Assembly (NCBI GenBank): GCA_030710605.1
Contig: CP092865.1
Location: 32,315,359 to 32,379,358, forward strand
Direction of reading: 5' to 3'
DNA from: Cordylochernes scorpioides
Lineage: Eukaryota; Arthropoda; Arachnida; Pseudoscorpiones; Chernetidae
DNA: 64,000 nt
Shown here: positions 6,839 to 57,220 of the stretch, piece after piece
How positions within the stretch are numbered: the first letter of the stretch is position 1
Layout: every line of letters begins with the position of its first letter
The notes under the pieces: generated by a model
What the model saw: the letters and a program-made list of their open reading frames with translations, nothing else
Database searches by the model: none
Told to the model about the DNA's origin: nothing
Translations under genes and position numbers: made by a program

Positions 6839-7022
6839 ACAAGAAAATAAGACCTAATCCAAATAATTTGATAGTGTGTGACATTTCGGCAACGTCACCA
6901 TCATCAGACAAAAGAATAAATGAGAAAAACATTTTATTCTTTTGTCTGATGATGGTGATAATGCTGTTTCTGATACGTCACACATTATTAAATTATTTGG
7001 ATTAGGTCTTATTTTCTTGTAT
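6839..7022. mobile_element. PLE-related foldback with hammerhead-like motif
   Basis: Two inverted arms flank a short loop. Arm ends read AATAAGACCTAATCC and GGATTAGGTCTTATT, and TAATCCAAATTGTGC follows as in related copies. Each arm has a CTGATGA block. The left-arm motif on the minus strand is CTGATGA-T-GG..CC-GAAATGTC. In the right arm the GAAA block is mutated (TGATAC). Confidence 0.6.
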
Positions 7023-7230
7023 TATAATCCAAATTGTGCTTTATCATGAGGTTGTTGTTGTCTAAGAGTGATACAAGTACAGATTAATGCCATTTTGTCC
7101 CTGTGATACTACAATTTAATAATGAAAATAAAAAAAAAAAATACAAAAAAGTACACACACACAATGGTTTCAATTAATACCATTAATTTATTTGTTTTAT
7201 CTCCAGTTTTTAAGTATGGTGTTCAATTTA

Positions 7231-7423
7231 TTTTTGAAGTTTTTGTTGGTTCATTTTGTATAGGAGAATGGGTGCCATTGTTATTCAATAAAGAAAGCAT
7301 TTTTTGGAAGGAATTGTTTTAATGAAAAAAGAAGACTATAAACAAAAAATGCTTTCTTTATTGAATAACAATGGCACCTATTCTCCTATACAAAATGATC
7401 TCTCCAACAAAAAACTTCAAAAA
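7231..7423. repeat. foldback repeat
   Basis: Inverted arms of about 75-80 bp at 7231-7304 and 7344-7423, sharing GGAGAATGGGTGCCATTG-type sequence, with a loop of about 40 bp. No coding content and no clear family. Confidence 0.75.
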
Positions 7424-7496
7424 ATCATTAATTTATATTACAATTTTTTTTTTTAAATATTATATCTGAGAGTTAAATGATTATCTAACTTTAATT

Positions 7497-7880
7497 CAAC
7501 ATTTCCTTCTTCTTCTTTCTTATTTCCACTCAATCATATTAGAGTATCAAGTTGTGACCCTTGATGGTGTCTGTTTGACAACCACCATGACTGGGTGAAG
7601 TAGAATACGTCTGCCTTTGTCATTAAACTGGGAGCACTACTCAGTGGCAGGCCGACTTAGCTCCAAAAGAAATGGCCGCCTCTGACATGAGGAACAGACA
7701 CCATGTGCAGCCGCTCCTAACATGGAGTACAAACACTGCTCATCCTGTATCCCTGGAGACCTTACAGGGTACTATTAGCCGGGCCAGCTGAACCCAGGTT
7801 CTTTAGTGAGCTTGTTATTGCTTTCCCTCCTCCTTTTTCATCCAGGCTTGGGACCGGAAAAGGCGGAGTTAACACTTCCT
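7497..7880 (+). repeat. 370-bp dispersed repeat, full copy
   Basis: It runs from a pyrimidine-rich CTTCTTCTTTCTTATTTCC start through GGCAGGCCGACTTAGCTCC and GGCCGCCTCTGACATGAGG to a CATCCAGGCTTGGGACCGG end. Other copies lie at 11726 (-), 12998 (+) and 13803 (-). No open frame is conserved between copies, so it is probably a non-autonomous element. Confidence 0.8.
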
Positions 7881-7949
7881 TTAATTCAACCGAAAGCTCT
7901 CATCTCTTGGGGTGTTGAATTAAAGAGGTACAACTGTATTTAACTAATG

Positions 7950-8523
7950 TCCAGGAGATTTAAATCAATTGATTTGATATTTATTACTTTTGCTTTTTAG
8001 AGGCTGTCTTAAACATGTACACAAATTTAAGACTATGTGGTCTGGGATTACATAAAATCAATCACAAAAATAAAAGGAAGCATGGAAATTTGTCCATTTC
8101 CGACCACATTTTTATAGAATGCTGGCCGCTCTTTACACCACAGAAACAGCTTCATTTAAAGGAATTTTACAATTTCTATTCTCTTATCTATTCCATGCCA
8201 CGAGAGACGGTCATCTAGAAGTTTGAAATTTTGTACTCTGACATTGTTGGCAATAATGAAACAGCCTATAAAATACCAGACTTCTACACACATGGTCTAG
8301 AACAATATATAGAGTCATTTATTTAAACTCCCCTTGTTAAATAATTAAAAATCAACGAGAATAGTTGATAATTATTCCGATAGATGGCGCAAGCCATCAT
8401 CAACTTTCAGTTGCACGATAAGGAGATGCCTTTTTCTTAATTTATGCACCTTATCCCAGTACAATATTACATTTGTACTATTTTTTCATATATATATACA
8501 TTTGTGCAACATATATAGGTGTA
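7950..8523 (+). repeat. left part of a 1.2-kb dispersed repeat
   Basis: It matches 28735-30000, with shared blocks such as CTGTCTTAAACA, GACCACATTTTTATAGAATG and TTTGAAATTTTGTACTCTG. The repeat continues at 9034 beyond a PLE-type foldback and a MITE that inserted into it. Confidence 0.7.
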
Positions 8524-8870
8524 CTTAATGATAAGACACAATTTGGATTTTAGATTATAAATACAAGGTAATAAGACCAAATAAATAAATAGTATATCAC
8601 ATTTCGGTAACAGCGTTGTAACCATCTTCAGACAAAAGTATCAAATGATTTTTTTTTTTCAAAACATGTTTTAAATATTTACTGTTATCAAGTGTGTAAA
8701 CTATCTTCTCCTTATCTACCTATCTTCTTATCTGTTATCTTTTTTACACACTGTAACTATTTAAAACATGCTGTGATATATTTTATCATTCAGTATTTTT
8801 GTCTGAAGATGGTAACAATGATGTTACCGAAATGTCACACACTATTTATTTATTTGGATTTGGTCTTATA
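8524..8870. mobile_element. PLE-related foldback with hammerhead-like motif
   Basis: Inverted arms at about 8566-8643 and 8795-8870 enclose a spacer of about 150 bp. The right arm reads CTGAAGA (8803-8809), T, GGTAAC, a loop, GTTACC, GAAAT, then GTC. The outer sequence (GATAAGACACAATTTGG) is the inverse of the TAATCCAAATTGTGC tail of related copies. Confidence 0.65.
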
Positions 8871-9031
8871 CAGTAGAACCTCCCATTAGAGGACACCTTT
8901 CCATAAAGGACAGTTTTCATCTGCAAAATTACCATTTTTTACAATTTAACAACTCTCCAATAAGTGGACACCTCTCCCTAAAGGAAACTTTGGCTCTGCA
9001 ATTAGGTGTCCTTTACAGGGAGGTTCTACTG
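8871..9031. mobile_element. pogo-like MITE family A, complete
   Basis: TA|CAGTAGAACCTCCCATTAG to AGGGAGGTTCTACTG|TA, 161 bp. It lies directly against the end of the preceding foldback. Confidence 0.88.
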
Positions 9032-9033
9032 TA

Positions 9034-9790
9034 TATATATTACCATAGGTATATTTAATATAAATGTGTGCATGATGATATTGGAAACAAATTACTTAAT
9101 TATAACAGATAAATAGATATATTTTTTATTTATAACAGAATTTTGCTTTTAATTCCAAAGAGGCTTCAGATAAGAACCTTGTGAATATTTGGATTTCTTC
9201 TTTCTTTAAAGTCTTTAATGATTACAGAAGAATTCAAATCGCTACTTGCAAAAGTTTTCCTGACCAGCCAGATGTCTGTACGCCTACAATGGTAGTTGAA
9301 CTGAGCAAGTGTTCAAAATTTAAGATTTCCATGTGGTCTGGAAATGCATATTAAAATTAAATTGTAAAATTTTAAATGCAATTCGAAATTAGTCTGCCCC
9401 CGACCACTCTGACCAACCAGAATCACCAGAGCATCTTCTTTTAACTTTCCCTCTGACTAATCAAATTGTATGTAGATACTTTGAAACATTACCAAATTCT
9501 CTTTGTGTATATACTCTAATGAGAACTTTGTTAAGTTTAGAACTATTACAAAACACTACTAATCCATCGTGTAAATATTTAATCATATATATGTAAATAA
9601 TACTAGCACAGCACAATAGTCCTTTGGACTTCGTGCTTTTGTAACAATAAATAAATAAAAAGAAGTCAGAAAATTTGTCAACTTGAATTGTCATCAGGTT
9701 CGAATAAGTACAAAATTTCAGACTTCTCTGTGCTAATAGATTACAAAATTTGTGGACAGACAAAAATGAAGAAAATTAAATAAAACCTTT
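9034..9790 (+). repeat. right part of the 1.2-kb dispersed repeat
   Basis: Matches 10708-11290 and 33468-33970, with shared blocks TTGGAAACAAATTACTTAAT, CAATGGTAGTTG and AATTTAAGATTTC. The open frame at 9461-9763 (-) falls inside it and is not conserved. Confidence 0.7.
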
Positions 9791-10159
9791 TTAAAAAAAT
9801 CTTTATCACTGGGAATATTAGGCCTTAAATAGACAGAAGTCTGCTCGTGGTGGATTGGTCAATTCCTTGTACAAGGCAGGAAATGACGTAAGCAAAGCCT
9901 AACTGAAATATGTCTCTTTACTTTTGGTTTGGGGAACCCTAAATTTATTGGGAACTATATTACAAAGCTACAGACACATAATTGCTGAGATAATTGGTAC
10001 ATATTTAATATTGATTATGTGATTATTCAATTGATTAGTTTTAATTATAAGTAATAAATGAAATTCCAATTGACAAAGGGGAATTATTTATGATATTATA
10101 ATTCATGAAATATGTGGATTTATATTATCATATATTAAAAATAAAGAAGGCATTTCCTG
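9791..10159. other. spacer
   Basis: No feature recognised. Confidence 0.4.
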
Positions 10160-10345
10160 ACCACGAGCACATGTGCTTTTTAGATGGCAGAGCGCCATCT
10201 AGTGGAGCAAAAATAAACTAAACGTTTATTTAGCTTGCTCCGTGATATTTGGCCAACCCAATTTCTTGATAAATCAAGAAAAGCCATCCACGAACGTGCT
10301 TCGCGCTGTTGGCGCTCGTCAGCATGGAGTAGGCTATAACCACTG
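10160..10345. repeat. repeat related to the intron-1 foldback
   Basis: Shares CTTTTTAGATGGCAGAGC, GCCATCTAGTGGA and TGATATTTGGCCAACCCA with the foldback at 21640-21960. Overlapping open frames (10180-10430) are not conserved. Confidence 0.65.
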
Positions 10346-10521
10346 CGACCAAAAAGATTTTTGGTCCCAGAGGCTTCCAGAGAAATCAAGAAATGGGTAT
10401 TTAAGGCCAAATTTGCGTAAATACGCTTAACACATGAGAAAAAAATGTTTCCATTGTTTTTTCATTATCATATATGTACAATGAATTTGTTTTGAAAATA
10501 GAGCAATCCATATTTAATTCA

Positions 10522-10707
10522 TTAGATAATAAAAAGGCATATATTGGATTTAATAAAAGATTTATTTGCCAATATTTCGGTTGGCTGAACGGCAAACCTT
10601 TATCAAGGCATAATGTAATGCCTTGATAAAGGTTTGCCGTTCAGCCAACCGAAATATTGGCAAATAAATCTTTTATTAAATCCAATATATGCCTTTTTAT
10701 TATCTAA
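10522..10707. mobile_element. near-perfect palindrome, PLE-like, with degenerate hammerhead-like core
   Basis: Two arms of about 93 bp meet at a centre of about 7 nt near 10615. The right arm reads TTGATAA (10623-10629), an extra A, GGTT...AACC, GAAAT, ATT. The layout matches the hammerhead-like motifs of the other foldbacks, with two core letters changed. No protein-coding content. Confidence 0.6.
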
Positions 10708-11290
10708 TATATAATGAATATAAATATATGTGTGATGATATTGAAATCATATTACTGACTTGTAGCAGATAAATTATTATATTTATTGACTTTTGACAGC
10801 TTTTTACTTGTAATTCCATGGAGGTTTTAAATAGGAATCTAAATATTCGGATTTCTAACTCTTTTGAGCTCTTGAACAATCTCTGAAAAAATCATTTCGC
10901 AACTCCCAACAGTTTCTGACTTGACTTCATGCCACACATAATTTGTTCATCCCCGGCCACTACGATCACCCAGAAGTCTGAAAATTTGTACACTTGCCTT
11001 GTTCATTGGACTGAGCGAGTGTTAAAAGTTTCATACTTAAATGTGATCTGAAATTATATTAAAATAAAATTTTAAAATTTTGAAAGGCAATTTGAAAATT
11101 TGTCTGTTCCTGGCCATTCTGACAACCTCAAAGTCCGATAATTTGTCAACTTACATTGTCATCAGGTTCTAACAAATGTACAAAATTTCAGAATTCTACG
11201 TGCTCTAGAAGTATACTAAAACTCGATTACAAGATATGTGGACAGACAGACATGGAAGCAAGTTAAATAAAAGCTTTTAATAAAGCTCAC
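10708..11290 (+). repeat. partial copy of the 1.2-kb repeat
   Basis: Diverged copy of 9034-9790, ending with a GTGGACAGACAGACATGGAA-type block that recurs near 9750 and 33935. Confidence 0.65.
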
Positions 11291-11597
11291 CTCACTCTTT
11301 AAAATAGACTTCCGAACTAGGTACCATTTATTGACCATCACCATGCCATAGCAGCCTCAGGTCGACGACAAAACAGCAACAGCAGCTTTGGAAAACTGAG
11401 AAGTGCGCACCTTCTAGTTTTGATGAGAGAGGCAACCATTTTTTTTATAGATCATTATTCTCCTGGCAAAATTTCCATCATTATTTTGGTCATAGATTTG
11501 GCCTAGTCACTTAGCCAGCTAAACACCTCTTTGGCAGATTGTGAAGATTTCATTTGATCCCTTGTGGATCTCTCTCATGGAATAAAGACCACCCTAG

Positions 11598-11737
11598 ACT
11601 GACAAGGGCACCTTGTAAGTGCAAATTTCAAACTTATTTCTATATGCCTAGACATGAGGTTCATTTACAGTAAAAGGAAGTTGCTAAATACTAACCACAA
11701 TTAACATAGCCTGTACTTAGGATAAGTAAACTCCGCC
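11598..11737 (+). mobile_element. SINE tail fragment
   Basis: Diverged copy of the SINE body (GCACCTTGTAAGTGCAAA, GACATGAGGTTCATTTACAG, TACTTAGGATAAGTAAA). It abuts a minus-strand copy of the 370-bp repeat. Confidence 0.6.
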
Positions 11738-11905
11738 TTTGCCGATCCTAAGCCCGGATGAAAAAGGAGGAGCAGTAACAAGCTCACTAAAATACCTGGG
11801 CTCAGCTGTCCTGGCTGATAGTACCCTGTAAGGGCTCCTAATCCAGGGATACAGAATGAACAGCCTTTGTACTCCATGTTAGGAGCAGCTGCACATGGTG
11901 TCTGT
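11726..11905 (-). repeat. 370-bp repeat, truncated
   Basis: Minus-strand copy of the right half of the repeat (CCGGATGAAAAAGGAGGAGC, GTACTCCATGTTAGGAGC). Confidence 0.75.
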
Positions 11906-11907
11906 TA

Positions 11908-12256
11908 TTATCAATACTGTCGAATTACGGTTTGTTATTTGATAGGCCGGAGGTCGGGACTTCAGAATATGGTCGAATTAAGGTAGAGTGTCGAATTACC
12001 GAGGTTATACTGTATATGGCAGCTAAGTTTCATCTGGATGAAATCCATTATTGTAGAAATATAGGCCAAACAAACAATCATTACATTAATAACTTTTTTT
12101 TTGCTCAATCAAATGGTAACAAGAAGTAAGAAAAGTAAATTTGATTAAATGGAACCTCAGTATAACATCAAAATGGTTATTACATCTTAGTCCTAAATGT
12201 TCTAACTGGTTATAACATCATAAAATCTGGGTCTTGAGTGATGTTGCTATAATGAG
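11908..12256. mobile_element. two decayed pogo/Tigger-like MITE remnants
   Basis: The segment to 12013 has repeated GTCGAATTA blocks and ends GAGGTTATACTG|TA. The segment from about 12142 to 12256 pairs AACCTCAGTATAACATC with GATGTTGCTATAATGAGGT. Both resemble pogo-type terminal regions and have no coding capacity. Confidence 0.5.
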
Positions 12257-12271
12257 GTAAGTAAATTCTAT

Positions 12272-12605
12272 TACGATGCACTAGCGCGCCATCTATTATC
12301 AAATTACAAAACTATTTTAGACACGTAATATTCTTTTTAAAATAAAATAATTTCTACTGCCCTTACTGCAATGGAAAAATTATAGGGAGGGCCTGGCTCA
12401 TCAGTGGTGAACCCTCCCAGCGGTTTCGCCAAGTTCCAAAAATGCAATATAACAGCGGTATGATAGATTAAACTGGCGAAACCGCTGGGAGGGTTCACCA
12501 CTGATGAGCCAGGCCCTCCCTATAATTTTTCCATTGCAGTAAGGGCAGTAGAAATTGTTTTATTTTAAAATAATATTACGCGTCTAAAATGGTTTTGTAA
12601 TTTGA
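12272..12605. mobile_element. foldback with permuted hammerhead-like core and 14-bp flanking repeats
   Basis: A palindromic element of about 334 bp is flanked on both sides by the 14-bp direct repeat TAAGTAAATTCTAT (12258-12271 and 12606-12619), a retrotransposition-like target duplication. Each arm contains CTGGC-GAAAC and CTGATGA-GCCAG. In the right arm on the plus strand these are at 12473-12482 and 12501-12512. Related single-arm copies lie at 4520, 26030 and 59320. Confidence 0.65.
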
Positions 12606-12724
12606 TAAGTAAATTCTATCAGAGGTCTCAGCATACTAATCTATATGAATTGTTTATATTTTTTCTCACTATGTACTCTACTTTGAGTGTATATGATTGA
12701 AGATGATGACTTAAATACTATGGA

Positions 12725-12817
12725 CATATTCAGTACTTTTGTCTGAAGATGGTAACAACGCTGTTACCGAAACGTCACACACTATTTATTTATTTGGATT
12801 TGGTCTTATTACCTTGT
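12725..12817 (+). mobile_element. single-arm PLE-type terminal segment with hammerhead-like motif
   Basis: It reads CTGAAGA (12743-12749), T, GGTAAC (12751-12756), a 6-nt loop, GTTACC (12763-12768), GAAAC, GTC. The stem is perfectly paired. It ends with TTTGGTCTTATTACCTTGT like its relatives, and only one arm is present. Confidence 0.6.
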
Positions 12818-13000
12818 GTTTACTACGGACATAGTATGCTAAGAGACTGGATTCTAAAGGGCAGGGATAGAGGGAGACAACCAGAGATAGACCACAATAA
12901 AAATAATTGTTGGACTAACCAAAGAAGATAGGTTGTGTCATTGATGGAGAAAGATTGGTATGAAGACATGAGGAGACCAACAGACATTCTCGATAGATCT
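12818..13000 (+). pseudogene. RTE-like LINE C-terminal fragment
   Basis: The frame reads YYGHSMLRDWILKGRDRGRQ, then EIDHNKNNCWTNQRR, then a stop and a continuation ending DILDR. This resembles the post-RT tail of RTE-type LINEs (GH..R, GRGRP, W..D..., final DR). It joins directly to the PLE-type segment. Confidence 0.4.
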
Positions 13001-13352
13001 TCTTCTTCTTTCTTATCTCCACTCAATCATACTAAGGTATCAAGCTTGTAGAGATGATAACCATGACTGGGTGAAGTAGAATGCGTCTGCCTTTGTCATT
13101 AAGACTGGGAACACTACTCAGTGGCAGGCCGACTTAGCTCCAAAATAAATGGCCGCCTCTGACATGAGGAACAGACGCCATGTACAGCCGCTCCTAACAT
13201 GGAGGACAAACGCTGCTCATCCTGTATCCCTGGATCAGGAGCCCTTACAGGGTACTATCAGCTGGGCCAGCTGAACCCAGGTTTTTTAGCGAGCTTGTTA
13301 CTGCTCCCCTTCCTCCTTTTTCATCCGGGCTTGGGACCGGCAGAGGCAGAGT
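12998..13352 (+). repeat. 370-bp repeat, copy
   Basis: Near-complete plus-strand copy, forming a widely spaced inverted pair with 13803-14110. Confidence 0.78.
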
Positions 13353-13802
13353 TTTCTCCATAGATGATAATTGTCAGTCTTTCTGAGCTATTCCAAAGTT
13401 CTCTCACATCTCTCTTAGCAGTTTATTATATTCAAACACTTAGTCCAAGAACTGTCCTGAGACATAGGATTGCTTGGACTGACCCTCCTACATCTATGGC
13501 CAGCCTCCTCCAGCATGGAATCTGATTGGCAATCCATTCAGGCCACAATTAGGACTGATTGTTACAAGTTTGTACAACTCAGCCTGGGTGCACTCCAGGA
13601 ACCTGGGTTATCTTTCTCTCTGAATGTTTACTCTGGGCAGCATTGAGCTCTCAGTGAAGACAACATCATGGCTAGGTAGTAGTTGCTAAAATTTCCCATG
13701 AATAATACTTCCTGAATAACTAATTCACCCAGGGGGTTCTTCAGCCTGCAATATTGCAGCATCATGCAAGTCTCTGGAAACATTCACAGCATTTATTGTA
13801 GG
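13353..13802. other. spacer between inverted 370-bp repeats
   Basis: No coding frame or RNA gene recognised. Confidence 0.4.
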
Positions 13803-14110
13803 ATCAAACTCCGCCCAAAGTCCCAAGCCCGGATGAAAAAGGAGGAGGGGGAGCAGTAACAAGCTCACTAAAAAACCTGGGCTCAGCTGGCCCGGCTGAT
13901 AGTACCATGTAAGGGCTCCTAATCCAGGAATACAGGATGAGCAGCGTTTGTACTCCATGTTAGGAGCGGCTGCACATGGCGTCTGTTCCTCATGTCAGAG
14001 GCGGCCATTTATTTTGGATCTAAGTCGGCCTGCCACTGAGTAGTGCTCCCAGTCTTAATGACAAAGGCAGACGCATTCTACTTCACCCAGTGTGGAGATA
14101 AGAAAGAAGA
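13803..14110 (-). repeat. 370-bp repeat, copy
   Basis: Minus-strand copy. The open frame at 13725-13958 (-) lies inside it and is not conserved in other copies. Confidence 0.78.
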
Positions 14111-14333
14111 AGATTGTAGGATCGGATGGCCTAAAATATAATAATACACTTGAACCCACTATAACAACAGCACTTGTTGGATGAAATGGTGCTGTGAACT
14201 CTAGTTCCAATACGTTCCTGTATGTGTCTGCTTTTTGTATATAGAGGTAATAGAGGTTTATTACATGTGCTATAATAGAATGGAAGAAAGAGGAAACAGA
14301 TATGCCTTTAATTATATTTAAAAAAATAAAACA

Positions 14334-14508
14334 AGGTAATAAGACCAAATCCAAATAAATAGTGTGTGACGTTTCGGTAACAGCGTTGTTACCATCTTCA
14401 GACAAAAGTACTGAATGGTTCAGTACTTTTGTCGGAAGATGGTAACAACGCTGTTACCGAAACGTCACACACTATTTATTTATTTGGATTTGGTCTTATT
14501 ACCTTGTT
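14334..14508. mobile_element. compact PLE-type palindrome with hammerhead-like motif in both arms
   Basis: Arms run from CAAGGTAATAAGACC to GGTCTTATTACCTTG with a tiny centre near 14416. The left arm on the minus strand has an intact CTGAAGA-T-GGTAAC...GTTACC-GAAAC-GTC. The right arm has CGGAAGA. It is followed by TATAATCCAAATTGTGCC, as in the sister copies. Confidence 0.65.
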
Positions 14509-14626
14509 TTATAATCTATAATCCAAATTGTGCCATATCAATAAAAAAAAAAATAAAAAAAAAACTTGTTGTTAACACCATGGTTGAAACAATTGGGACT
14601 TGGGACCCTAGAATTACAATGTTGTA

Positions 14627-15061
14627 GCCAAGTTTCTGTTATAAAGAGGTACCACCATGTGTGTTCTTGTCATATTTGACTGCACACAGACTTATCTGAC
14701 ACTGTACCCAAGCAGACAGAAGTTCTACAGCCCCCTCCCTTTGTTTACAGGAAATATACAACAGTGAGGCTACTCACACAAATCCATTGGAAAAATTAAA
14801 TTGCACCTAACCTACTATATTTTCAGCAATACTAAGATAGTTTCACAACTGTTTCTGCAGATTAAAATCTACTACTACTTTCCTCTCAATAGGTTTCAGA
14901 TCTTTTCCAAATTTATTATGATTGGAGTGTTCATCTAAGTGGAAACCTATTTTTTTCATTTCACGTTTGCTATAAGTCTGTAGAAAATATTTATCAATTC
15001 AAATTAAATAATATGTATATTGGTCATTGTAATTGATGCCAATTATTTTTCTTTTTTCATA
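14627..15061. other. spacer
   Basis: AT-rich, no feature recognised. Confidence 0.4.
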
Positions 15062-15063
15062 TA

Positions 15064-16391
15064 CAAGGTATGTCCCATAAGTTCCCGGACTGGGTCCATA
15101 AAAAAAAAAAGATAAAATATATATTTTTTAATTTATTAAAACTTTTCAAAGTAATCCCCCCTTGCTTCAACGCACCAGCGCCATCGTTTCTCCCAATTGT
15201 CGAAACAGTTTTTATAGGCCTCTTTTGGAATGCTCTTCAATGCTAACGGCGATTTTTCTATTATGTCATCCCTGGTGTCAAAATGTCTTCCTTTTAGAAC
15301 TTCTTTAAGTTTTGGGAACAGGAAAAAGTCATTTGGTGCGATATCAGGGGAATAGGGTGGTTGAGGTAGGATTTGTGTCCCGTTTTTCGCCAAAAAACTC
15401 GTCACCAAGTGCACTGTGTGAGGGCGGGCATTGTCATTGTGTAGGATCCAGTCACCATAAGTCCATTTTTCTGGCCTTTTTTTTTTTTGAATCGCTTCCC
15501 TTAGATGGCGAAGAATGCCCAAATACATTTCCTTGATAACTGTTTGGCCTGCAGGAAGATACTCGTGATGAACAATGCCCTTGTTATCCAAAAAAGCGAC
15601 CAGCAACACCTTGTTTCTGGATTTCAATATCCTGGATTTTTTTTGTTCTAGGCTCACCCTGACCTCTCCACTCGGCAGATTGACGCTTGGTTTCAGGGTC
15701 ATAGCCATAGACCCATGTCTCGTCGCCTGTGATTATCTTGTCTTTCCATTCCGGATCTGTTCTTATCATTTCCAACATGTCCTCACAGGTTGCAAGCCGA
15801 CACAGTTTTTGCTCATTAGTGAGGAATCTTGGGATGAATTTTGCAGGAGTCTTTTTGAGCTTCAAATCTTATGTTACGATCCTTCCAATCGTTGTTTTAG
15901 AGATGCCTGTTCCTTTCTCTAGCTCCAGCAAAGTGGTTCGAGGATTTTCTTTTATCAAATCGGTGATTTTTTGCACATTTTCTCAGTCCTTTGAAATTTT
16001 GGGCGTCCTTGACAAGATCATCTTCAATGGAAATTCTGCCAGCTTTAAATCTAGAATGCCATTCAAAAAAAGTTGTTCTCTTTGGGGCGTCTTTGAGGAA
16101 TGCTTTATTAAGCATTTCAAAAGTTTTAGTTGCTGATATTTGAAGTTTCACACAAAATTATATGCAAATCCTCTGCTTCAATTTTTGTTCCATCGTAAAA
16201 TCGCCGCAGCGCTAGGTGTAACCTTTAAATAAATTAGAATGACCTTGGCGCGCGCGCACGCACCGCCTCGATATTGGTATCACCGTGTTGCCAGATATTT
16301 TTTCTATAATAAAAAGTCAAATTTTATTTACATTTTTAATTAATTTATTTTTTTTATGGACCCAGTCCGGAAACTTATGGGAAATACCTTG
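15064..16391 (-). mobile_element. mariner transposon, full length, inactive
   Basis: The ends are inverted: CAAGGTATGTCCCATAAG at the left, and CTTATGGGAAATACCTTG at the right. Both are flanked by TA at 15062-15063 and 16392-16393. The 1,328-bp length is normal for mariner. The transposase reads right to left and is frameshifted. Confidence 0.9.
15136..16151 (-). pseudogene. mariner transposase, frameshifted
   Basis: Three consecutive minus-strand frames together cover a typical mariner transposase. The first (16151-15897) holds the N-terminal DNA-binding region, with KTFEMLNKAF and FFEWHSRFKAGR. The second (15865-15584) holds FLTNEQK and the first catalytic Asp in ITGDETWVYGYD. The third (15708-15136) holds the second Asp in ILHNDNARPH and the third in SPDIAPNDFF, with 34 residues between them (D34D). 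The frame changes between frames one and two, and again near the T-run at about 15640. The element is therefore a dead copy, although its catalytic residues survive. Nearby open frames on the opposite strand are shadows. Confidence 0.88.
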
Positions 16392-28007: not shown

Positions 28008-28172
28008 AATGTAATAAGACCAAATCCAAATAAATATTGTGTGACATTTTTGGTAACAGTGTTGTTACCATTTTCAGACAAAAGTGCTGAAGATTTTATA
28101 TGAAGATGGTAACATCGCTGTTACTGAAACGTCACACACTATTTATTTGGATTTGGTCTTTTAACCTTGTAT
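28008..28172. mobile_element. PLE-type palindrome, diverged
   Basis: Arms TAATAAGACCAAATCC and GGATTTGGTCTT. The hammerhead-like stem GGTAAC/GTTAC survives, but CTGAAGA is ATGAAGA in the right arm and the GAAA block is AAAAA in the left. Confidence 0.6.
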
Positions 28173-28964: not shown

Positions 28965-29190
28965 TTTTTTTTTTTTTATTATTTTGCTTATCCCTAGTAC
29001 ACGTGGTATGGGCCATGATAATCATGGTGGGTAGAGGTAGGCGACTGTTTTTACTGCAAGTACACCACATGTCTACAAATGTGAAAAGCAGTTCGACTTT
29101 GCACTTACAAATGTGCCAGAACCCTGTTTGGTTACCTGCACTTGCTGGTGGGGTTGGACTTTTGTAAGAATCAAGGGCCATTGGAGCATT
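28965..29190 (-). mobile_element. tRNA-Ser-like SINE, head truncated
   Basis: Minus-strand copy beginning with a long T-run and ending inside the body. Inserted in the 1.2-kb repeat. Confidence 0.8.
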
Positions 29191-29241: not shown

Positions 29242-29873
29242 TCTACTTATATAATTGCCTTATTCTGTCTGTGTGAAGTTCACGGATAGATTTTGGTCAT
29301 CAACGCACGCATCATCATTATGATCATTATCATTATCTAATGATAATTATTATTATTATACTTATCTACTTATATAATTGCCTTATTCTGTCTGTGTGAA
29401 GTTCACTGTGTGAAGTTCACGGATAGATTTTGGTCAGAATGGATAAAATAAAAAAAGTGTCAAGGGATGGGAATCGAACCCACGACCTTCCGCTTACCGG
29501 GCAGATGCCATGACCACTAGGCTACCCTGGACATATTTTTCCGTTCATAAAGTTAATATATAAATGCAAAAAAAAATCGACATGATGAAATCTTTATGAA
29601 AATTTACATCTTTATTTTTATATTTTCAAGACACACACAGTTTGGGGCGGGACGTTTCACAAGAGAGACATCCACGGCGCCAATTTATAATTGTAACGAA
29701 TAGTATTTTAATTAAAACATTTTAAAAACACACAGTTTGGAATGGGACGTTTCACAAGAGTGACATCCATGGCGCCAATTTATAATTGTAACGAATAGTA
29801 TTTGAATTAAAACGTTTTTAAAATATATACGCACTCGGGTAAAACCCGGGCGTTGCCCGGGCCATTCGTCTAG
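29242..29873 (+). mobile_element. Helitron with partial 5' duplication and tRNA-like passenger
   Basis: Starts A|TCTACTTATATAATTGCC and ends with the hairpin CCCGGGCGTTGCCCGGG and CTAG|T. The 5' start recurs at 29364. The unoccupied relative near 8255 supports the boundaries. Confidence 0.85.
29460..29531 (-). tRNA. tRNA-like sequence (GGT anticodon position) in a Helitron
   Basis: A 72-nt minus-strand cloverleaf. Acceptor TCCAGGG pairs with CCCTTGA with one mismatch, and a D-arm, anticodon stem TCTGC/GCGGA and T-arm GTGGG/CCCAT are present. The anticodon would be GGT (Thr), but base 33 is C, not T. It is near-identical to 34871-34942 in another Helitron. More likely a mobile tRNA-derived passenger than a working tRNA gene. 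Confidence 0.55.
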
Positions 29874-30383: not shown

Positions 30384-32981
30384 TCAATTCTTCCAATTCC
30401 CCCAGTTAGAATATCTGCAATACTCCCTCCGCCAAGCCGCAATTCTTGAAGATCTTCTTGGGATTATAGTTTCATTCTGGCCTTCCTCTTCGTCTTCTCT
30501 CCTCAGTTCTTCGTCTCCACAGGCCTGCTCTTCATCCTCTTTTCGTTCTAAGTTATTCAGATTTCTCTCTACCGATATTGCTTCTTCATCAGTCCCTGAA
30601 TATCCTCTTGGGATCGCAGCTTCATTTCGACCTTCCTCGTCTTCCTTCTTAAGTTCGTCTTTCTGATTCCTTTCCACCAATTTCGTATCTTCCTCATTTA
30701 CAGATTCATAGCCTTCTTCAAAATTATTATTTAAAACCTGGAAAAAATCAGTTTCATGTGAAATTTGCTTATCGACTTTCTTAGTTGGGAAAACATCTTC
30801 TCTAAATCTGACATTTCTGGTTACAAAGACCTTATTGTTTCTGAAGTCCCAAACCTTGTATCCCTTGACTCCTTCCGGATAACCAATTAAAACACATTCT
30901 CGGCTTCTTGAATCAAATTTGGATCGACGCCGGTCGTTGTATACCCAGGTCTGACAACCGAAAACTCGGATATGCTCAATCTTCACTGGCCGTTCGGTCC
31001 ACATTTCTTCTGGTATTTTGTTACCTATTGCCTTGCTAGAACATTTGTTTCTCAAGTAACATGCTGTATTTACGGCATCTGCCCAGAATGATTTAGGAAT
31101 CCCTGATTCAAGTAAAATGCATCTTGCTGTGTTTAGTAATGTTTGATTCATTCTTTCCGCAGTTCCATTTTGCTGAGGTGTTCTTGGAACTGTAAGCTGT
31201 CGTTTGATGCCATTTTCATTAAGGAATTTATTAAATTCGCCGTTAACATATTCCGTCCCATTATCACTTCTTAAGACTTTGATTTTTCTGCTGTGGTAAT
31301 TCTCAACACTGTTCTTATATTCTTTAAATCTTTCTAGTACCTCTGATTTAGACCTCATAAAATATACTGTAGTGTAATGAGTGAAATCATCTATGAACGT
31401 CACAAAATAATTGTTCCCTCCTTTCGACATTGGGCTAATGGGACCTACTACATCCGAATGGATGAGCTCCAAAGGTGATGAAGTTTTCTTACTTTCGACA
31501 GGTTTGGAAGGAAATGGTAGTCTTCTCATTTTACCTTCAAGGCACACCTCGCACTCTGCTGTGTCACTCACATTTTGGAGATCCCTTTTGTAAACGTGTC
31601 CTAGCCTTCTGTGCCAGATATCTGCACTAGGTGACTTCACTTTAGCCATCTTCAGTTCTTCCACTGTATAGATTCTTCCTCTTCTATTAGATTTCAAAAT
31701 TAACCCGCCATCACTTCCAAAAACAGAGGCCTTGCCATTCTGGAATAAAACTTTGTTTCCTCTTTCCTCAATCCTTCCAACAGACAAAATATTTCCGTCT
31801 AACTCAGGAACGTATAATACGTTTTCTAAGAACAAGGTTTCACCTCCATATTCGTGACCGAGTTTGATGGTTACATCACCCATCTCTGATACTTTTATTT
31901 CCTCATTGTTAGCCATTTCTACTGAAGTTGAAATACTTTTTGTGTTCGTCAATTTCAGTCTGTTCGACGTCATATGTTCAGTAGCTCCACTGTCCAGAAA
32001 CCAGATATTCTGCGAATTATTGTTTTTAAAGTTGTTCGCAAATAGGACCTTATGAGTCAGGTCTAGCGTACCTTGTTTCAGCATACCTTCGCTAATTCTC
32101 CTTGAGGAGTTGGCAAATCTGCAATTCCTAGCTATGTGCCCTAATCTGCCACAACTGAAACACCTTATCTGCCTAGAGATACCTTCGCTAATTCTCCTTG
32201 AGGAGTTGGCAAATCTGCAATTCCTAGCTATGTGCCCTAATCTGCCACAACTGAAACACCTTATCTGCCTCGGGTAGTTATAATTTTCCCTTTTCCCTTC
32301 CGTCCACGTATTATGATAATTCCTTGGTTGATCATATTCAAATTTATTTTGCTCTTGACATGGTGATTTGCATGTATCCTCTTTTCTTCTTGCCGCAAAA
32401 GCGCAATTAGGATCTTCTTGAGGAATTTGACGCTGTTTCTGTCTTTTTTCTTCTAAAAGTAATTTGGATTTTACCACACTAGTAGATAGCTTCTCTTCTT
32501 GCTGTTCTAAACTGAGAATTAGCGGCTCGTAGCTCTTTGGCAATCCCAATAACATAATTAACGCCAATTCGCCATCCCCAAATCCATGGTGGCACTTTGC
32601 TAATTTTCTATGGCATTCCATTATTCTCGCGAAATATTCCTTCATGTCTTCGTCATTTCTTTTGACAATATTGAAAAATTCTCTCAATAACTGTAATATG
32701 TGCAGCAAGCCATACTTTGTGTGGATATCCTCCAGTATCTGCCAAGCATCAATCGCTCGCTTGCAATCACCGATATCATCTAGGAATGAATCCTCAACTG
32801 CTAGTAATATGACAGATAATGCCAAACTATCTTTCCGCTTCTGTTTTTCTGAAGTTTCCCTAGGAAAGCCAGGCTCAATCGCATCCCATATGTCCTTCTG
32901 GATCAAAATAGATTTAGTTCTTATGGCCCAGGTATAATAATTATTCCCATCTAGTTTAGGTATTCTTAACTCGTCAGCCAT
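30384..32981 (-). CDS. copia Gag-protease-integrase polyprotein, 865 aa, no RT
   Basis: A single uninterrupted frame. The Gag part starts with RIPKLDGNNYYTWAIR (residues 6-21). It is followed by two tandem CCHC knuckles CFSCGRLGHIARNC, an exact-looking 32-residue (96-bp) duplication. The protease motif is LDSGATEHM. A GAG-pre-integrase region (HRRLGHV...CEVCLEGK) supplies the integrase zinc-binding residues. The integrase core has HSDVVGP, FVTFIDDFTHYT, LRSDNGTEYV and TPQQNGTAERMNQ, which include the DDE residues. After an acidic linker and RRSSRIAAWRRE the frame ends. In a second frame the next bases read IADILTGGIGRIELTRIL then ATLGLR-stop, the normal copia RNase H C-terminus. So a deletion joined linker to tail out of frame. 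Particles and integrase could be made, but replication would need RT from another copy. Confidence 0.93.
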   Translation of the reverse strand: MADELRIPKLDGNNYYTWAIRTKSILIQKDIWDAIEPGFPRETSEKQKRKDSLALSVILLAVEDSFLDDIGDCKRAIDAWQILEDIHTKYGLLHILQLLREFFNIVKRNDEDMKEYFARIMECHRKLAKCHHGFGDGELALIMLLGLPKSYEPLILSLEQQEEKLSTSVVKSKLLLEEKRQKQRQIPQEDPNCAFAARRKEDTCKSPCQEQNKFEYDQPRNYHNTWTEGKRENYNYPRQIRCFSCGRLGHIARNCRFANSSRRISEGISRQIRCFSCGRLGHIARNCRFANSSRRISEGMLKQGTLDLTHKVLFANNFKNNNSQNIWFLDSGATEHMTSNRLKLTNTKSISTSVEMANNEEIKVSEMGDVTIKLGHEYGGETLFLENVLYVPELDGNILSVGRIEERGNKVLFQNGKASVFGSDGGLILKSNRRGRIYTVEELKMAKVKSPSADIWHRRLGHVYKRDLQNVSDTAECEVCLEGKMRRLPFPSKPVESKKTSSPLELIHSDVVGPISPMSKGGNNYFVTFIDDFTHYTTVYFMRSKSEVLERFKEYKNSVENYHSRKIKVLRSDNGTEYVNGEFNKFLNENGIKRQLTVPRTPQQNGTAERMNQTLLNTARCILLESGIPKSFWADAVNTACYLRNKCSSKAIGNKIPEEMWTERPVKIEHIRVFGCQTWVYNDRRRSKFDSRSRECVLIGYPEGVKGYKVWDFRNNKVFVTRNVRFREDVFPTKKVDKQISHETDFFQVLNNNFEEGYESVNEEDTKLVERNQKDELKKEDEEGRNEAAIPRGYSGTDEEAISVERNLNNLERKEDEEQACGDEELRREDEEEGQNETIIPRRSSRIAAWRREYCRYSNWGNWKN

Positions 32982-33226
32982 TGATATTTCTAGGTATGCA
33001 AATCTGACAAAAAATTATAACTCAAAGCTTTTTTCTTCTTCTTCGTTGCACAAAGTTCAGTCTTTAAATCACTCAAATATCTTATAATCAAATTCTATTC
33101 TCTATCTTAGTTAGCCTAACAAACTTTTCTTCTTTGGCTTTCCCTTTTAGCTTTTTCTTCTTTACTTTCTTTAGCTTTAACTTCTAGCTTTTTCTTCTTT
33201 AGCCTAAACTTCTAATTTCTCTCTAC

Positions 33227-34755: not shown

Positions 34756-35007
34756 CTAGACGAATGGCCCGGGCAACCCCCGGGTTTTACCCGAGTGCGT
34801 ATATATTTTAAAAATGTTTTAATTAAAATACTATTCGTTACAATTATAAAAATGTGAACGGAAAAATATGTCCAGGGTAGCCTAGTGGTCATGGCATCTG
34901 CCCGGTAAGCGGAAGGTCGTGGGTTCGATTCCCATCCCTTGACACTCTTTTTATTTTATCCATTCTGACCAAAATCTATCCGTATATAAGGCAATTATAT
35001 AAGTAGA
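34756..35007 (-). mobile_element. 252-bp minimal Helitron with tRNA-like passenger
   Basis: TC at 35007 and hairpin/CTAG at 34756 (minus strand), A/T flanks intact. Nearly a third of the element is the tRNA-like sequence. Confidence 0.85.
34871..34942 (+). tRNA. tRNA-like sequence in a minimal Helitron
   Basis: Same 72-nt cloverleaf as 29460-29531 (anticodon position GGT, C33). It has A-box-like AGCCTAGTGGTCATGG and B-box-like GTGGGTTCGATTCCC, so pol III could transcribe it. Confidence 0.55.
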
Positions 35008-47549: not shown

Positions 47550-47551
47550 TA

Positions 47552-49394: not shown

Positions 49395-50345
49395 TTACAT
49401 TCGTGCAAACCGATACCTACATATATGATCTCCCTAAAATACATAAACCAGGTGTCCCCATGGTCTTCCTAAAATACATAAACCAGGTGTCCTCATGGTC
49501 TTCATAAAATACATAAACCAGGTGTCCCCATGGTCTTCCTAAAATACATAAACCAGGTGTCCTCATGGTCTTCCTAAAATACATAAACCAGGTATCCCCA
49601 TGGTCTTCCTAAAATACATAAACCAGGTGTCCCCATGGTCTTCCTAAAATACATAAACCAGGTATCCCCATGGTCTTCCTAAAATACATAAACCAGGTGT
49701 CCTCATGGTCTTCCTAAAATACATAAACCAGGTGTCCCCATGGTCTTCCTAAAATACATAAACCAGGTGTCCTCATGGTCTTCCTAAAATACATAAACCA
49801 GGTATCCCCATAAGACTCATTGTAGCCTTCTACCATTCCTCAACGGCGCCTCTTTCGAGGTTCATCTCAGCCTTTCTCAAGCCCTTGATCAAGCAGAAAA
49901 ACTCCTCATTCTCCATTTCCACCATCACCACCTTCTTGTATGAAATAAAAGAAATACTCAAGTCCCCCAAGTCCAACTGACCAACAAGACATGGTCTTGT
50001 TCGACCTAGCATCTCATTTCCCCAGTCAGTTCATACTAAGCAGCTTTGAAGAGTTATTTAAGAGAAAATCAAATCGATCAAATCGCGTCGCGCAGTAAAT
50101 ATCTCAACTAATATCACTTTGTCTCAAAGTAAACTCTCATATTCTCTTATATGATAAGAAGCCTTATAAATAGATGAAAGAATATCCAATGGGGAGCTCT
50201 CTGTAAGATCAAATATGTAGATGAGACCGGTAGACATATAAACATAAGAATATCGGAACATAAACAATATATAGACAATAGTAGAGTAATTCTTCCTGGA
50301 ATGAACTTATACGATAATAACAAGGCGAAGGAAGACGAGTATCTT
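49395..50345 (+). pseudogene. Penelope-like RT and GIY-YIG fragments
   Basis: The frame before the repeat array gives DTYIYDLPKIHKPGVPM. After it comes IPIRLIVAFYHSSTAPLSRF, then ISAFLKPLIK and FLYEIKEILKSPKSN-stop. These match the YGLPKIHK and LRPIVS...LS.FL...L.P blocks of PLE reverse transcriptases. One base later MVLFDLASHFPSQFILSSF resembles the catalytic SFDVVSLFT block. At about 50190-50310, CKIKYVDETGRHINIRISEH matches the GIY-YIG signature (normally YVGETGR). Inactive. Confidence 0.8.
49430..49812 (+). repeat. 35-bp minisatellite grown inside a PLE RT
   Basis: About eleven units of CCTAAAATACATAAACCAGG plus TGTCCCCATGGTCTT. Each unit encodes PKIHKPG from the RT followed by filler. 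35 is not a multiple of three, so each unit changes the frame. Units differ mainly by C/T changes (TGTCCCC, TGTCCTC, TATCCCC). Confidence 0.95.
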
Positions 50346-50520
50346 TATTGGTGCATAAGAGCGAGCTTTCGGACAAAAGCCCTTCGACTGGCAAGATATA
50401 ACGACACTACGGGACATAGTGTCGTTATATCTTGCCAGTCGAAAGGCTTTTGCCCGAAAGCTCGCTCTTATGCACCAATAAAGATGCTCGTCTTCCTTCG
50501 CCTTGTTATTATCGTATAAA
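50307..50520. repeat. palindrome at the 3' end of the PLE
   Basis: Arms 50307-50408 and 50419-50520 share AGAGCGAGCTTTCGG and GGCAAGATATAACGACACT and their inverses. A GGC-TTTT-GCC hairpin followed by GAAAGCTC resembles the 3' half of the hammerhead-like motif in other PLE ends. Confidence 0.85.
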
Positions 50521-50573
50521 TATATAGACAGTCAGACATTAGTGTATCAGCATATTATAGCGTGATTTATTTA

Positions 50574-52708: not shown

Positions 52709-52945
52709 ACGTCAACAGGGAGCCTATCAATGACAAGATTGTATTTTTGAATACCTATCCTTTAAGGCGTGATATTCTAAGCAAGTTTTCTCCAAACTGG
52801 AATTTCCTATAGCATGTACCCCATCACAGCTTCGTCCTTGTCAATATATACTTTTGTTGTTGTAAACTCGCTGAGGAGGATGGCTGTTTGAAATCTTTGT
52901 AGATGGTAGACGGTTGTTGACAGTTTGATCCTCCAGGTGGCGTTT
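52709..52945. repeat. 235-bp repeat, copy 2
   Basis: Second copy of 51829-52061, preceded here by an open plus-strand frame from 52582. The minus frame extends to 53016. Confidence 0.6.
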
Positions 52946-54670: not shown

Positions 54671-54864
54671 AGGAAGAGAGAGAGATTGAGATTGAAACTG
54701 ATTTATTACGATGTTCATATAAGAATTTATAAGGTTGATTACAAAATTGAATAAATACGAATATATATATATAAGATTATAAAATGATAAATAGAATAAA
54801 TAGATATTAATAGATAAAGATAATTGATAAATATACATATATATAAATATATACAAGGTCTTCA

Positions 54865-55584
54865 TTAGTGGCGCCCACCGCGGGAAAGACTCCGCCACCG
54901 GTGGACTGCGAGAGTTCTTTCCCACAGAGTGGGCAGGTCGAGGTGATGGCTGGCATTACCCAACTCAAGACCAAGATGATACTTGTAGATGGTAGCCTTC
55001 GCCACACTTGTTATTTTCACTGCCCCGGGATGGAGGCCGACGCCGAGGAGCCAGGCCTGCAGATCCAGGGGCACTTCGCAGGAGGCGAACACCTCCCGGA
55101 GCAGGAGTCGCACGGCTCGGCAACTCCAATATCTGTGGGTCAGCGACCCGTCGCTGGACCCACAGGCGGCACAGGTGGCACGCCTCGAGGCAGGATGGTC
55201 AGGATGGGGTAGGGCGTGGAGGGCTGGCCGTAGGGCGACATCTGCGTCGTGCCCCGAGAAGCAGTTCCGACGCAGGTCGGCCCAGGAGATGAAGCGGGGC
55301 ACATCCACGGTGAGGGTCCACCGGGCAGCCAGCTCTGCAGTAGGATGCGCCTGTAGCTGTGCCGAGTCCAATGGCCGGCGCGCCCTCTGGCTGGTGAGGC
55401 GGGTAATGGGGGTCGCCGATCCACGCAGGACGATGGTCTCCGCCTCGTACTCCGCATGATAGCTGGAGCTGGCGGTTTCCCGCAGGAGACGTTGGCAGAA
55501 GTCTCCCAGATGCTGCGCGTTCAGGAGCGCGGCCCGCGTTGAGCGAGATGAGAGAGATTGAGATCTCTTTATTACATCGCTCAT
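54865..55584 (-). pseudogene. LINE ORF2 C-terminal fragment, copy 2 (longest)
   Basis: A 239-residue open frame holds HALPHPDHPASRRATCAACG, then SSDGSLTHRYWSCRAVRLLL (a CCHC-type knuckle), then LQAWLLGVGLHPGAVKITSV, ending RWRSLSRGGRH-stop. The RT lies upstream in a full element and is missing here. GC-rich codons contrast with the host. I do not assign a clade with confidence. Confidence 0.72.
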
Positions 55585-55981
55585 ATGTGGTTATATAAGG
55601 TTAAATACATAAATATGAGTAAATAATATCACGAAATGATAAATATATATAAATAAATGTAAATATATAAAATAATTGACAAATATACATATTTTAGCCA
55701 CGTTTTAAAAGTTAAAAGAGAAAACGAAAATATAACGTGGTAAGTTTCTTTTTATTAAAAATACAAGCTTTCAAGCAAAACGCTTTTCTTCAGGTAATCC
55801 AAGAAAATATGTGGAGAGGTATATACACCCAACTAAGTAAGATTTGAATATTGAAGCGGAATTGCCACGAACAAGCACGTATCAACACACCTAGAGAGCG
55901 AGCGAGAAATTCAGTTTAAAATAAGTTTAAAATAAATAAAATATATACATAAATCGGGAAAACACTTGAGGTTAAAATTCC

Positions 55982-56300
55982 TTATGCGGGATCCATGCTA
56001 TTACAAAAAGCTATGTACTGCGGGGGTAGTTCAATTTTTCTATTGAGGCTCGGAATTTTATTGGAAACCAAAGCCTCCAGGACCAGTCGTTGATATTTTC
56101 CGCTTATGTTACTGTAAATACATTGGGTGTCTGTGAAATCAAATGAATGCTGTGTTTCTGCCATGTGCTGATAAATCTGGGAACGGCTGTCTTTGTTCAT
56201 GATGTTTCTATTGTGTTCTTTAGTCCTGATTTTTCAATGGTTCTGCCGGTTTCACCAACATAATGTAGTTCGCAATTTGAGCATTTAATTTTGTACACTG
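55982..56300 (-). pseudogene. PLE GIY-YIG domain, left arm
   Basis: VYKIKCSNCELHYVGETGRT is followed after a one-base shift by MNKDSRSQIYQHMAETQHSF and LNRKIELPPQYIAFCNSMDP-stop. The CELHYVGETGR block is the GIY-YIG signature of PLEs. A frameshift separates the two parts. Confidence 0.8.
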
Positions 56301-56389
56301 CGTTAGAGGCGGATAGTGGGTCCTGCTTTTTAGAACTCTTTGTGATGGGATGCCTAGTTCTAAAAAGCAGGACCCACTATCCGCCTCTA

Positions 56390-56711
56390 ACGCAGTGTAC
56401 AAAATTAAATGCTCAAATTGCGAACTACATTATGTTGGTGAAACCGGCAGAACCATTGAAAAATCAGGACTAAAGAACACAATAGAAACATCATGAACAA
56501 AGACAGCCGTTCCCAGATTTATCAGCACATGGCAGAAACACAGCATTCATTTGATTTCACAGACACCCAATGTATTTACAGTAACATACGCGGAAAATAT
56601 CAACGACTGGTCCTGGAGGCTTTGGTTTCCAATAAAATTCCGAGCCTCAATAGAAAAATAGAACTACCCCCGCAGTACATAGCTTTTTGTAATAGCATGG
56701 ATCCCGCATAA
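56390..56711 (+). pseudogene. PLE GIY-YIG domain, right arm
   Basis: Same content as the left arm in opposite orientation, with the same frameshift. One visible residue change (NIRGKYQ against NISGKYQ), so the arms are young or kept alike. Confidence 0.8.
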
Positions 56712-57220
56712 GGAATTTTAACCTCAAGTGTTTTCCCGATTTATGTATATATTTTATTTATTTTAAACTTATTTTAAACTGAATTTCTCGCTCGCTCTCT
56801 AGGTGTGTTGATACGTGCTTGTTCGTGGCAATTCCGCTTCAATATTCAAATCTTACTTAGTTGGGTGTATATACCTCTCCACATATTTTCTTGGATTACC
56901 TGAAGAAAAGCGTTTTGCTTGAAAGCTTGTATTTTTAATAAAAAGAAACTCACCACGTTATATTTTCGTTTTCTCTTTTAAATATACATATAAACAAAAA
57001 TATATACAAGATCTTTATTAGTGTCGCTAACCGCGGGAACGACTCCGCCACCGGTGTAAGAGAGAGAAAGAGAGACAATTTTTTTTTTTGACAAATAACA
57101 TAGTTTTATTGACATCCCGTCAAAATATAGGCAAAAGTGCACAGTCCGCACAATTCAAGTAGATATGAAAAAATAATATATAAAAAAAGAAGGAAAATAA
57201 AAAATACAATAAAATATATG

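Follow-up and report, generated by a model that had tools for sequence, protein, structure and literature searches.

A 64,000-nt stretch of the genome of the pseudoscorpion Cordylochernes scorpioides (GCA_030710605.1, contig CP092865.1, positions 32,315,359-32,379,358, forward strand; the whole stretch is called the window below) carries copies of a small hammerhead-like RNA motif that lie in palindromic foldback elements and beside fragments of Penelope-like elements (PLEs). An earlier note on this DNA had described the motif at five sites, and its layout could be read back at all of them, 12743-12776(+), 8803-8836(+), 14401-14368(-), 56900-56928(+) and 10623-10658(+): CUGANGA (or UUGAUAA), a single extra base, stem II, GAAA, a short word and the H17 cleavage base. 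The core is UUGAUAA at 10623 and CUGANGA at the other four of the five.

Copies of the motif in the window

Two details of the first description needed amendment. The copy at 8803 has the layout of the one at 12743 but not its word, which reads GAAATGTC instead of GAAACGTC and is not self-complementary; and the 6-bp stem II with a 6-nt loop assigned to the 12743 copy is present, but may extend to 7 bp with a 4-nt loop. Both large palindromes bear the motif on both strands, which adds sites at 55793-55765(-) and 10606-10571(-) that the note lacked. The covariance search that it had proposed, with a custom model including the extra base (R1), was run on a 264-kb sample made up of the window and 20 stretches of 10 kb at round-number coordinates; it recovered further copies in the window and gave 29 matches at E<0.01 in all, 4 of them rows used to build the model. 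The window copies are as follows, with families (F) named by stem II word as set out below.

12743-12776 (+): putative F1 minimal hammerhead; CTGAAGA, extra T, stem II GGTAACA/TGTTACC, GAA, ACGT, C; stem I tgt/aca (R1 12740-12779, 36.6 bits, model row)
8803-8836 (+): F1 copy, stem III word altered to ATGT (R1 8800-8839, 38.0 bits)
8595-8634 (-): decayed F1 copy, left arm of the 8577-8857 palindrome (R1, 24.7 bits)
14353-14481: two inverted F1 ends forming a palindrome with 63-nt arms and a 3-nt gap (from sequence and RNA fold)
14368-14401 (-): F1 copy, left arm of the 14353-14481 palindrome (R1 14365-14404, 36.6 bits)
14430-14469 (+): F1 copy, right arm of the same palindrome, core now CGGAAGA (R1, 29.2 bits)
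6877-6910 (-): F1-type copy, left arm of the 6832-7027 palindrome (R1, 30.4 bits)
6943-6982 (+): decayed F1-type copy, right arm of the same palindrome (R1, 20.4 bits, E 0.07)
28097-28136 (+): F1 copy with decayed core ATGAAGA, new relative to the earlier note (R1, 27.7 bits)
56900-56928 (+): putative F5 minimal hammerhead of a PLE fragment; CTGAAGA, extra A, stem II AAGCG/TGCTT, GAA, AGCT, T; stem I tac/gta (R1, 38.1 bits, model row)
55765-55793 (-): F5 copy, left arm of the F5 palindrome (R1 55762-55796(-), 38.1 bits)
10623-10658 (+): putative F3 minimal hammerhead with a U3-A8 core; TTGATAA, extra A, stem II GGTT..AACC, GAA, ATAT, T; stem I gcc/ggc (R1, 33.3 bits, model row)
10571-10606 (-): F3 copy, left arm of the 10521-10708 palindrome (R1 10568-10609(-), 33.3 bits)
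50360-50393 (-): possible decayed copy of CUGUAGA type; CAGTCGA, extra A, GGGC..GTCC, GAA, AGCT, C (weak R1 match, 17.3 bits, E 0.44)

Families and copy numbers in the genome

Motif patterns were searched in the whole genome (2.62 Gb, 24 contigs), each against its reversed pattern as a control. Gap widths differ slightly between patterns, the counts of large families are lower bounds, and the places listed are the first 100 per pattern, nearly all of them on contig C1. With the 6-nt loop left free, the exact F1 word has no fewer than 14,775 occurrences (7,358 + 7,417), and its reversed pattern has none. Many repeat families share the layout among the matches listed: F1 (GGTAACA), F2 (GACAAAA), F3 (GGTTGGC), F3b (GTTAGGC), F4 (GAGGGA), F5 (AAGCG, the PLE of the window), F6 (GGGC), F7 (GGGCAG), F8 (GGAC), F9 (AGGC), F10 (AGTGAC) and F10b (GGCGAC), with F11-F13 weaker. 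A C3-A8 form (CTGATAAAGGAGACCCTTCC) and several one-off strings from the matches to the AGCU word were left out of this set. A further type has U at position 6 (CUGUAGA), usually one extra A, and the word AGCU; it is found at 28,976 places at least, against 57 for the reversed pattern, with examples in L022 (7622-7657(-)), L025 (5803-5838(-)), L019 (1208-1243(+)), L016 (7345-7380(-)) and L125.

An open descriptor was applied to the 264-kb sample and to 20 approximate dinucleotide shuffles, a single site being allowed to fall into several classes. One extra base was present in 27 motifs (7.7 per shuffle), two in 11 (8.15) and none in 24 (7.35). The set with no extra base includes nine canonical hammerhead copies, six reading GGGC-catta-GCCC, two GGGC-caaca-GCCC, and one decayed at window 10322(-). 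Families with TTGAAGAGCG and TTGAAGAACTAATTGTTC (L051, L052) share the words, but their stem takes in G8 and A9, and they were set aside as look-alikes; the TTGAAGAGCG / TTGAAGAAC families (L051, L052 and the AGCU matches) have the same words and likewise hold G8 and A9 inside the stem.

Covariation of the predicted fold

Stem II covaries across families beyond chance, the opposite of the outcome that the earlier note had named as speaking against its reading. In alignment A1 (12 families, aligned with MAFFT; F11, F12 and F13, all weak in stem I and the first two short in stem II as well, were dropped before A1 and R1 were made), changes on both sides are seen at each of eight pairs, three of stem I, the core pair 3-8 and four of stem II. 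Pairing is present in 95.8% of the 96 cells, the covariation score is 1.114 (0.324 shuffled), and 40 cells are changed on both sides (13.1 shuffled); none of these values was reached in 500 shuffles. When the partners are slid by 1-3 columns, only 29-57% of cells pair.

A 16-sequence test joined the 15 genome families with the hammerhead of PAc, the Poseidon PLE of Anolis carolinensis, which is absent from A1. Here 40 of 48 stem I cells pair (permuted mean 20.9), as do 60 of 64 stem II cells (36.0 expected), each unmatched in 20,000 permutations, and C-G or U-A occupies positions 3 and 8 in 16/16 (permuted mean 10.0, p 0.00065); the representatives were partly picked by eye, which leans the stem II and 3-8 statistics upward, whereas stem I was ignored in the picking. 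F10 and F10b differ simultaneously in the 3-8 pair and in stem II. Among the matches listed, 86 unique strings including F2 copies have C-G (59), U-A (12), U-G (9) or C-A (6) at 3-8, and the 57 of these with an unbroken 4-bp stem have 43, 4, 7 and 3, respectively; the U-G and C-A cases mean that single changes are present too. A natural swap of C3-G8 to U3-A8 had already been reported (PMC3088659, section 8); thus the swap seen here supports the fold and is not new. Judged by its covariation, this is a real RNA motif bearing marks of selection on the fold.

The extra base

A single extra base between CUGANGA and stem II was originally singled out as unlike the textbook form, and this is borne out: by unbroken stem length, one extra base fits 12 of the 15 genome families as well as PAc, with F11 and F12 reaching just 2 bp. 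Among the matches listed are 67 unique AGCU strings. An unbroken stem of at least 4 bp forms in 15 of them with one extra base, in 1 with two, in 0 with none and in 2 with an extra base on the 3' side, and 49 have no such stem; the scoring cannot register 4 bp in very short loops, so that GGGCTTGCCC is counted among the 49. The 59 unique CUGUAGA strings listed divide into 30 with one extra base, 2 with two, 1 with none and 26 without a stem, and of 12 CUGUAGA places taken with their flanks 10 fit one extra base and two (L130, L131) fit two. F1 without its extra base was found at 2 places in the genome, against the 14,775 or more with T. The canonical hammerheads of C. scorpioides have no extra base. 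In viral contigs, 75 places have a like pattern, with a stem of 4 bp or more in 15, of which 12 have zero extra bases (several are copies of one sequence), one has one and two have two; a second pattern had no matches in these contigs. By these counts the extra base is regular in the PLE-type motif of this genome, and a few families with 4-nt words fit none or two.

The novelty implied in the first description of this base is diminished, since the PAc hammerhead already has one (PMC11167929, which like the other papers cited here is drawn on in excerpt); the excerpt makes no comment on it. Nor was a description of its regularity in PLE hammerheads found in the open-licence literature in the parts covered, a scope outside which the primary papers on PLE hammerheads fall. 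In F1 and PAc the extra U yields an AUG made of A9, the U and the first base of stem II, and the PAc open reading frame (ORF) is reported to start at this AUG (PMC11167929).

The stem III word

The looped stem III is replaced in the motif by a 4-nt self-complementary word (ACGU, AGCU or AUAU) with no letters between the ANNU halves; helix III is reduced or absent, and site 8803 lacks even the self-complementarity. These words were required by the search patterns, and the genome count against its control therefore serves as the test of stem III. ACGU with an extra base other than T is found at a minimum of 25,563 places (283 reversed), and AUAU with CTGANGA at 5,334 or more (447 reversed). With YTGANRA, AGCU is found at 56,133 or more (5,721 reversed) and AUAU at 106,880 or more (17,660 reversed), and TTGANAA with SS, which mixes both kinds of word, at 24,385 or more (12,425 reversed); these three counts also include unrelated repeats. 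Words that cannot pair with themselves give at least 13,117 places against 9,083 reversed (RR) and at least 13,109 against 6,155 (YY), and many of the paired RR and YY strings listed are, by eye, single-base changes of F1, F2 or F10. The proposal of a stem III without a loop, possible only between two RNAs, thus agrees with an enrichment of self-pairing words over words unable to self-pair. Palindromic stem III in dimeric hammerheads is itself already known (PMC3088659).

Penelope-like elements and foldbacks

The motif had been called hammerhead-like and linked to PLEs. This link is shown for F5, F8 and the CUGUAGA type, which lie in direct repeats flanking PLEs or with PLE fragments; for F1 and F3 no autonomous partner element was found. 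In L030, an ORF of 799 codons (Pfam RVT_1, E 1.5e-7) lies between two direct F8 copies 2.7 kb apart. Its protein has no Pfam GIY-YIG match at E 0.001, though its C-terminal part is GIY-YIG-like by eye, and no convincing relative among PDB sequences (best E 0.011). L029 holds a second copy of this F8-flanked PLE, with broken frames. L125, one unit of a CUGUAGA series spaced at about 2.72 kb (places 9202235, 9204961, 9207690 and 9210410), has two such motifs with stem I ctc/gag, and these enclose reverse transcriptase and GIY-YIG matches that fall short of the Pfam cut-off. The motif thus lies in the pseudo long terminal repeats (pseudo-LTRs) of PLEs in L030 and L029 (F8) and in L125 (CUGUAGA type), and F5 lies beside GIY-YIG fragments in the window. 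The window has these two PLE features.

55982-56711: two inverted fragments of a PLE GIY-YIG endonuclease, one per arm, frames broken (tblastn to the L030 protein, 50-51% identity, E 1.6e-24); the right-arm pieces have no Pfam match at E 0.001
49774-49974 (+): PLE reverse-transcriptase fragment (tblastn to the L125 protein, 53% over 49774-49947, E 5e-12; to the L030 protein, 37% over 49774-49974, E 2.5e-8)

In the F1 and F8 copies measured, the predicted cut site lies about 40-55 nt ahead of the end of the repeat. Where copies neighbour one another within 400 bp, 37 of 42 such pairs are (-,+), with the 3' ends outward, two are (++), one is (--) and two are (+-) (100 listed places for each of the F1, ACGU and AGCU patterns); the centres of the inverted pairs vary. 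RNA of the 14353-14481 palindrome folds as one long hairpin (-103 kcal/mol), so that the motif there is most likely silent, and by such modelling the motif in foldback transcripts is probably locked in a long hairpin.

Relation to known hammerheads

PAc supplies the nearest comparison, its template reading ccu CUGAGGA U GCCUGC..GUGGGC GAA ACGU C agg (PMC11167929). Like F1 it has one extra base after CUGANGA, a loopless ACGU word and a 3-bp stem I. It differs in its stem and loop sequences, and it has been assayed, whereas the pseudoscorpion motifs are known from sequence alone; the latter are also present as short foldback copies, and among them are AGCU, AUAU and U3-A8 cores. In vitro, cutting by the PAc hammerhead required PAc protein; C3G or G8C alone abolished its activity, and the two together restored part of it (PMC11167929). 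By its features the motif belongs to a known kind, the minimal hammerhead of PLEs, and one assayed member already in the literature has the extra base.

Minimal type I hammerheads of PLEs and Terminons lack helix III, lie in pseudo-LTRs, are dispersed in thousands of copies and possibly form dimers (PMC6155905, PMC7761336, PMC6466107). The pseudoscorpion motif resembles them in its missing helix III, its pseudo-LTR setting and its dispersed copies. The primary reports on this class are said to be those of Cervera and De la Pena in 2014 and of Lunse, Weinberg and Breaker in 2017.

An extra residue at the same position is found in the (+) hammerhead of chrysanthemum chlorotic mottle viroid, where it is A10, flanked by A9 and G10.1; this residue moderately slows cleavage in trans, and a change of A10 to U raised the rate 3-4 fold (PMC3705267). 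That ribozyme differs in belonging to a viroid rather than a retroelement and in having loop-loop contacts. The canonical type I hammerheads of the C. scorpioides genome, which we read as retrozyme-like, share CUGANGA, GAAA and a palindromic stem III (ACCAUGGU, ACGCGU) with the motif, but have no extra base and a longer stem I and stem III; one such family has 11,755 places or more. The only Rfam hammerhead match within 6500-16000 (HH9 at 10273-10338(-), 21.8 bits against a gathering score of 52) is to a different copy with zero extra bases, a decayed canonical type I hammerhead resembling the L020 copies (26.1 and 24.1 bits, below gathering). The motif itself departs from the textbook hammerhead in its insertion after A9, in having no intramolecular looped stem III and in finding no Rfam match at gathering.

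Other features of the window

Rfam matches below gathering to microRNAs and transfer-messenger RNA were rejected as palindromes that fit hairpin models. Matches to truncated type-P1 twister ribozymes lie in a repeat family around 7627-7880 and 13066-14091; truncated twisters have been mentioned at the 5' end of RTE retrotransposons (PMC7761336). Further features are these.

7821-7875 (-), 13307-13358 (-), 11724-11778 (+), 13802-13853 (+): truncated type-P1 twister matches (44.8, 33.7, 30.5 and 24.0 bits; gathering 67.2)
30384-33014 (-): Copia-type gag/integrase ORF, 876 codons
42867-44177 (-): RVT_1 ORF, 436 codons
15136-15732 (-): fragment matching Transposase_1/DDE_3
29459-29531 (-), 34871-34943 (+), 3530-3600 (-): three tRNA matches of nearly equal score

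Discussion

We consider it very probable that the motif is a minimal type I hammerhead ribozyme of PLEs, without helix III, that acts as a dimer or with the help of a protein to trim PLE transcripts, and that the foldbacks of the window are by-products of PLE insertion. The hammerhead would sit in the pseudo-LTR and would lack a stem III of its own; its stem I would have 3 bp and its stem II about 4-7 bp, with one unpaired base separating A9 from stem II. Two copies, either in two RNAs or in the two pseudo-LTRs of one tandem transcript, would pair through the self-complementary ANNU to form a double hammerhead, in which each core would cut the partner strand after H17 (GUC^, GCU plus base, AUU), and these cuts would trim tandem transcripts to unit length. 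By analogy with the Anolis element, the PLE protein probably assists the fold. The PAc protein acts on both DNA strands of its target, cleaving and extending each (PMC11167929), and foldbacks would arise if both nicks were primed and two 5'-truncated copies anchored at their 3' ends were joined head to head; the motif would be kept in them owing to its position close to the 3' end. On this account F1 and F3 would derive from PLEs as well.

Several observations weigh against this account. Rfam hammerhead models give no match at gathering score in the window, and none to the four sites within 6500-16000 even at E up to 10. In A1 the number of pairs changed on both sides (8) was reached in 73 of 500 shuffles, and that of further pair types (20) in 42 of 500; among the 15 genome representatives, five have fewer than three stem I pairs (two in F4, F11 and F12, one in F6, none in F13), and F3b, F11 and F12 have fewer than 4 unbroken stem II pairs with one extra base, F3b doing better with none (3 against 1 bp). 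The double hammerhead was never the lowest-energy fold in 8 sequences (7 from the genome, and PAc), at -3 to -16 against -7 to -27 kcal/mol for two monomers, in a model that ignores tertiary contacts and protein; in such modelling an unfavoured bare double hammerhead would fit a weak ribozyme that needs help, and would equally fit a structural role. Many families have U at position 6, and a change at A6 is described as harmful (PMC3088659, section 8). Finally, in the PAc system insertion persisted in ribozyme mutants, and RNA-seq ends were absent from the cut site (PMC11167929, in the excerpt).

The RNA shape might instead be retained chiefly as a hairpin that the PLE reverse transcriptase or endonuclease recognizes, with self-cleavage weak or lost, a reading that we judge unlikely but serious. 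The abundance of the U6 core, which flanks a PLE unit in a tandem array, speaks for it, as do the insertion by PAc ribozyme mutants in vitro (PMC11167929) and the place of the motif near the 3' end of copies. Against it, the 3-8 positions change as a pair across families and CUG, GA and GAAA are kept, which a catalytic fold fits better, yet U-G and C-A do occur among the matches listed; moreover, PAc cleavage requires C3, G8 and the protein, and the shortest PAc template with activity began at +20 of the ORF, within the motif (PMC11167929). It is very improbable that the extra base reflects a misreading of a stem that truly begins one base earlier or later: the F1 T opposite G could wobble-pair, F3b pairs better without the base, and L130 and L131 suit two, but strings with one extra base outnumber those with none by 15 to 0 (AGCU) and 30 to 1 (CUGUAGA) among the matches listed, pairing drops when slid, and F1 is hardly ever found without its T. 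It is extremely improbable that the look-alikes are due to chance or are DNA palindromes of unrelated foldback elements or miniature inverted-repeat transposable elements with no RNA role. Stem-loops do arise easily from palindromes, many window copies are decayed, and the TTGAAGAGCG family has the same words around a stem that swallows G8 and A9; however, covariation at stem I, stem II and 3-8, together with PLEs that carry the motif in direct rather than inverted repeats, already disfavours the palindrome reading, and chance is ruled out by the genome counts against reversed controls, the 264-kb shuffles and the covariation.

Returning to the minimal PLE hammerhead, we advance one extension tentatively and regard it as more doubtful than probable: the extra base and the 4-nt self-complementary stem III may be coupled and define a distinct subclass of hammerhead that acts when paired or aided by the PLE protein and not otherwise, the bulge making room for two cores separated by just four bp. 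PLE families would share this arrangement as a fixed trait, their core being C3-G8 or U3-A8; the U6 core, present at tens of thousands of places, would either require an altered active site or be purely structural. The CUGUAGA variant is perhaps undescribed; as read from its sequence, either it still cuts, or its fold has outlived the chemistry in many PLEs of this genome.

Two parts merit experiments: the U6 core, and the coupling of the bulged base with a shared four-base stem III. One genome holds both a four-base stem III with a bulge and a longer stem III without one, a natural contrast that makes the purpose of the extra base testable. Since the Rfam hammerhead models are silent on the window copies, such motifs may be missed. 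Foldback elements that seem unrelated to one another are explained as likely debris of PLE-type insertion that share one RNA module.

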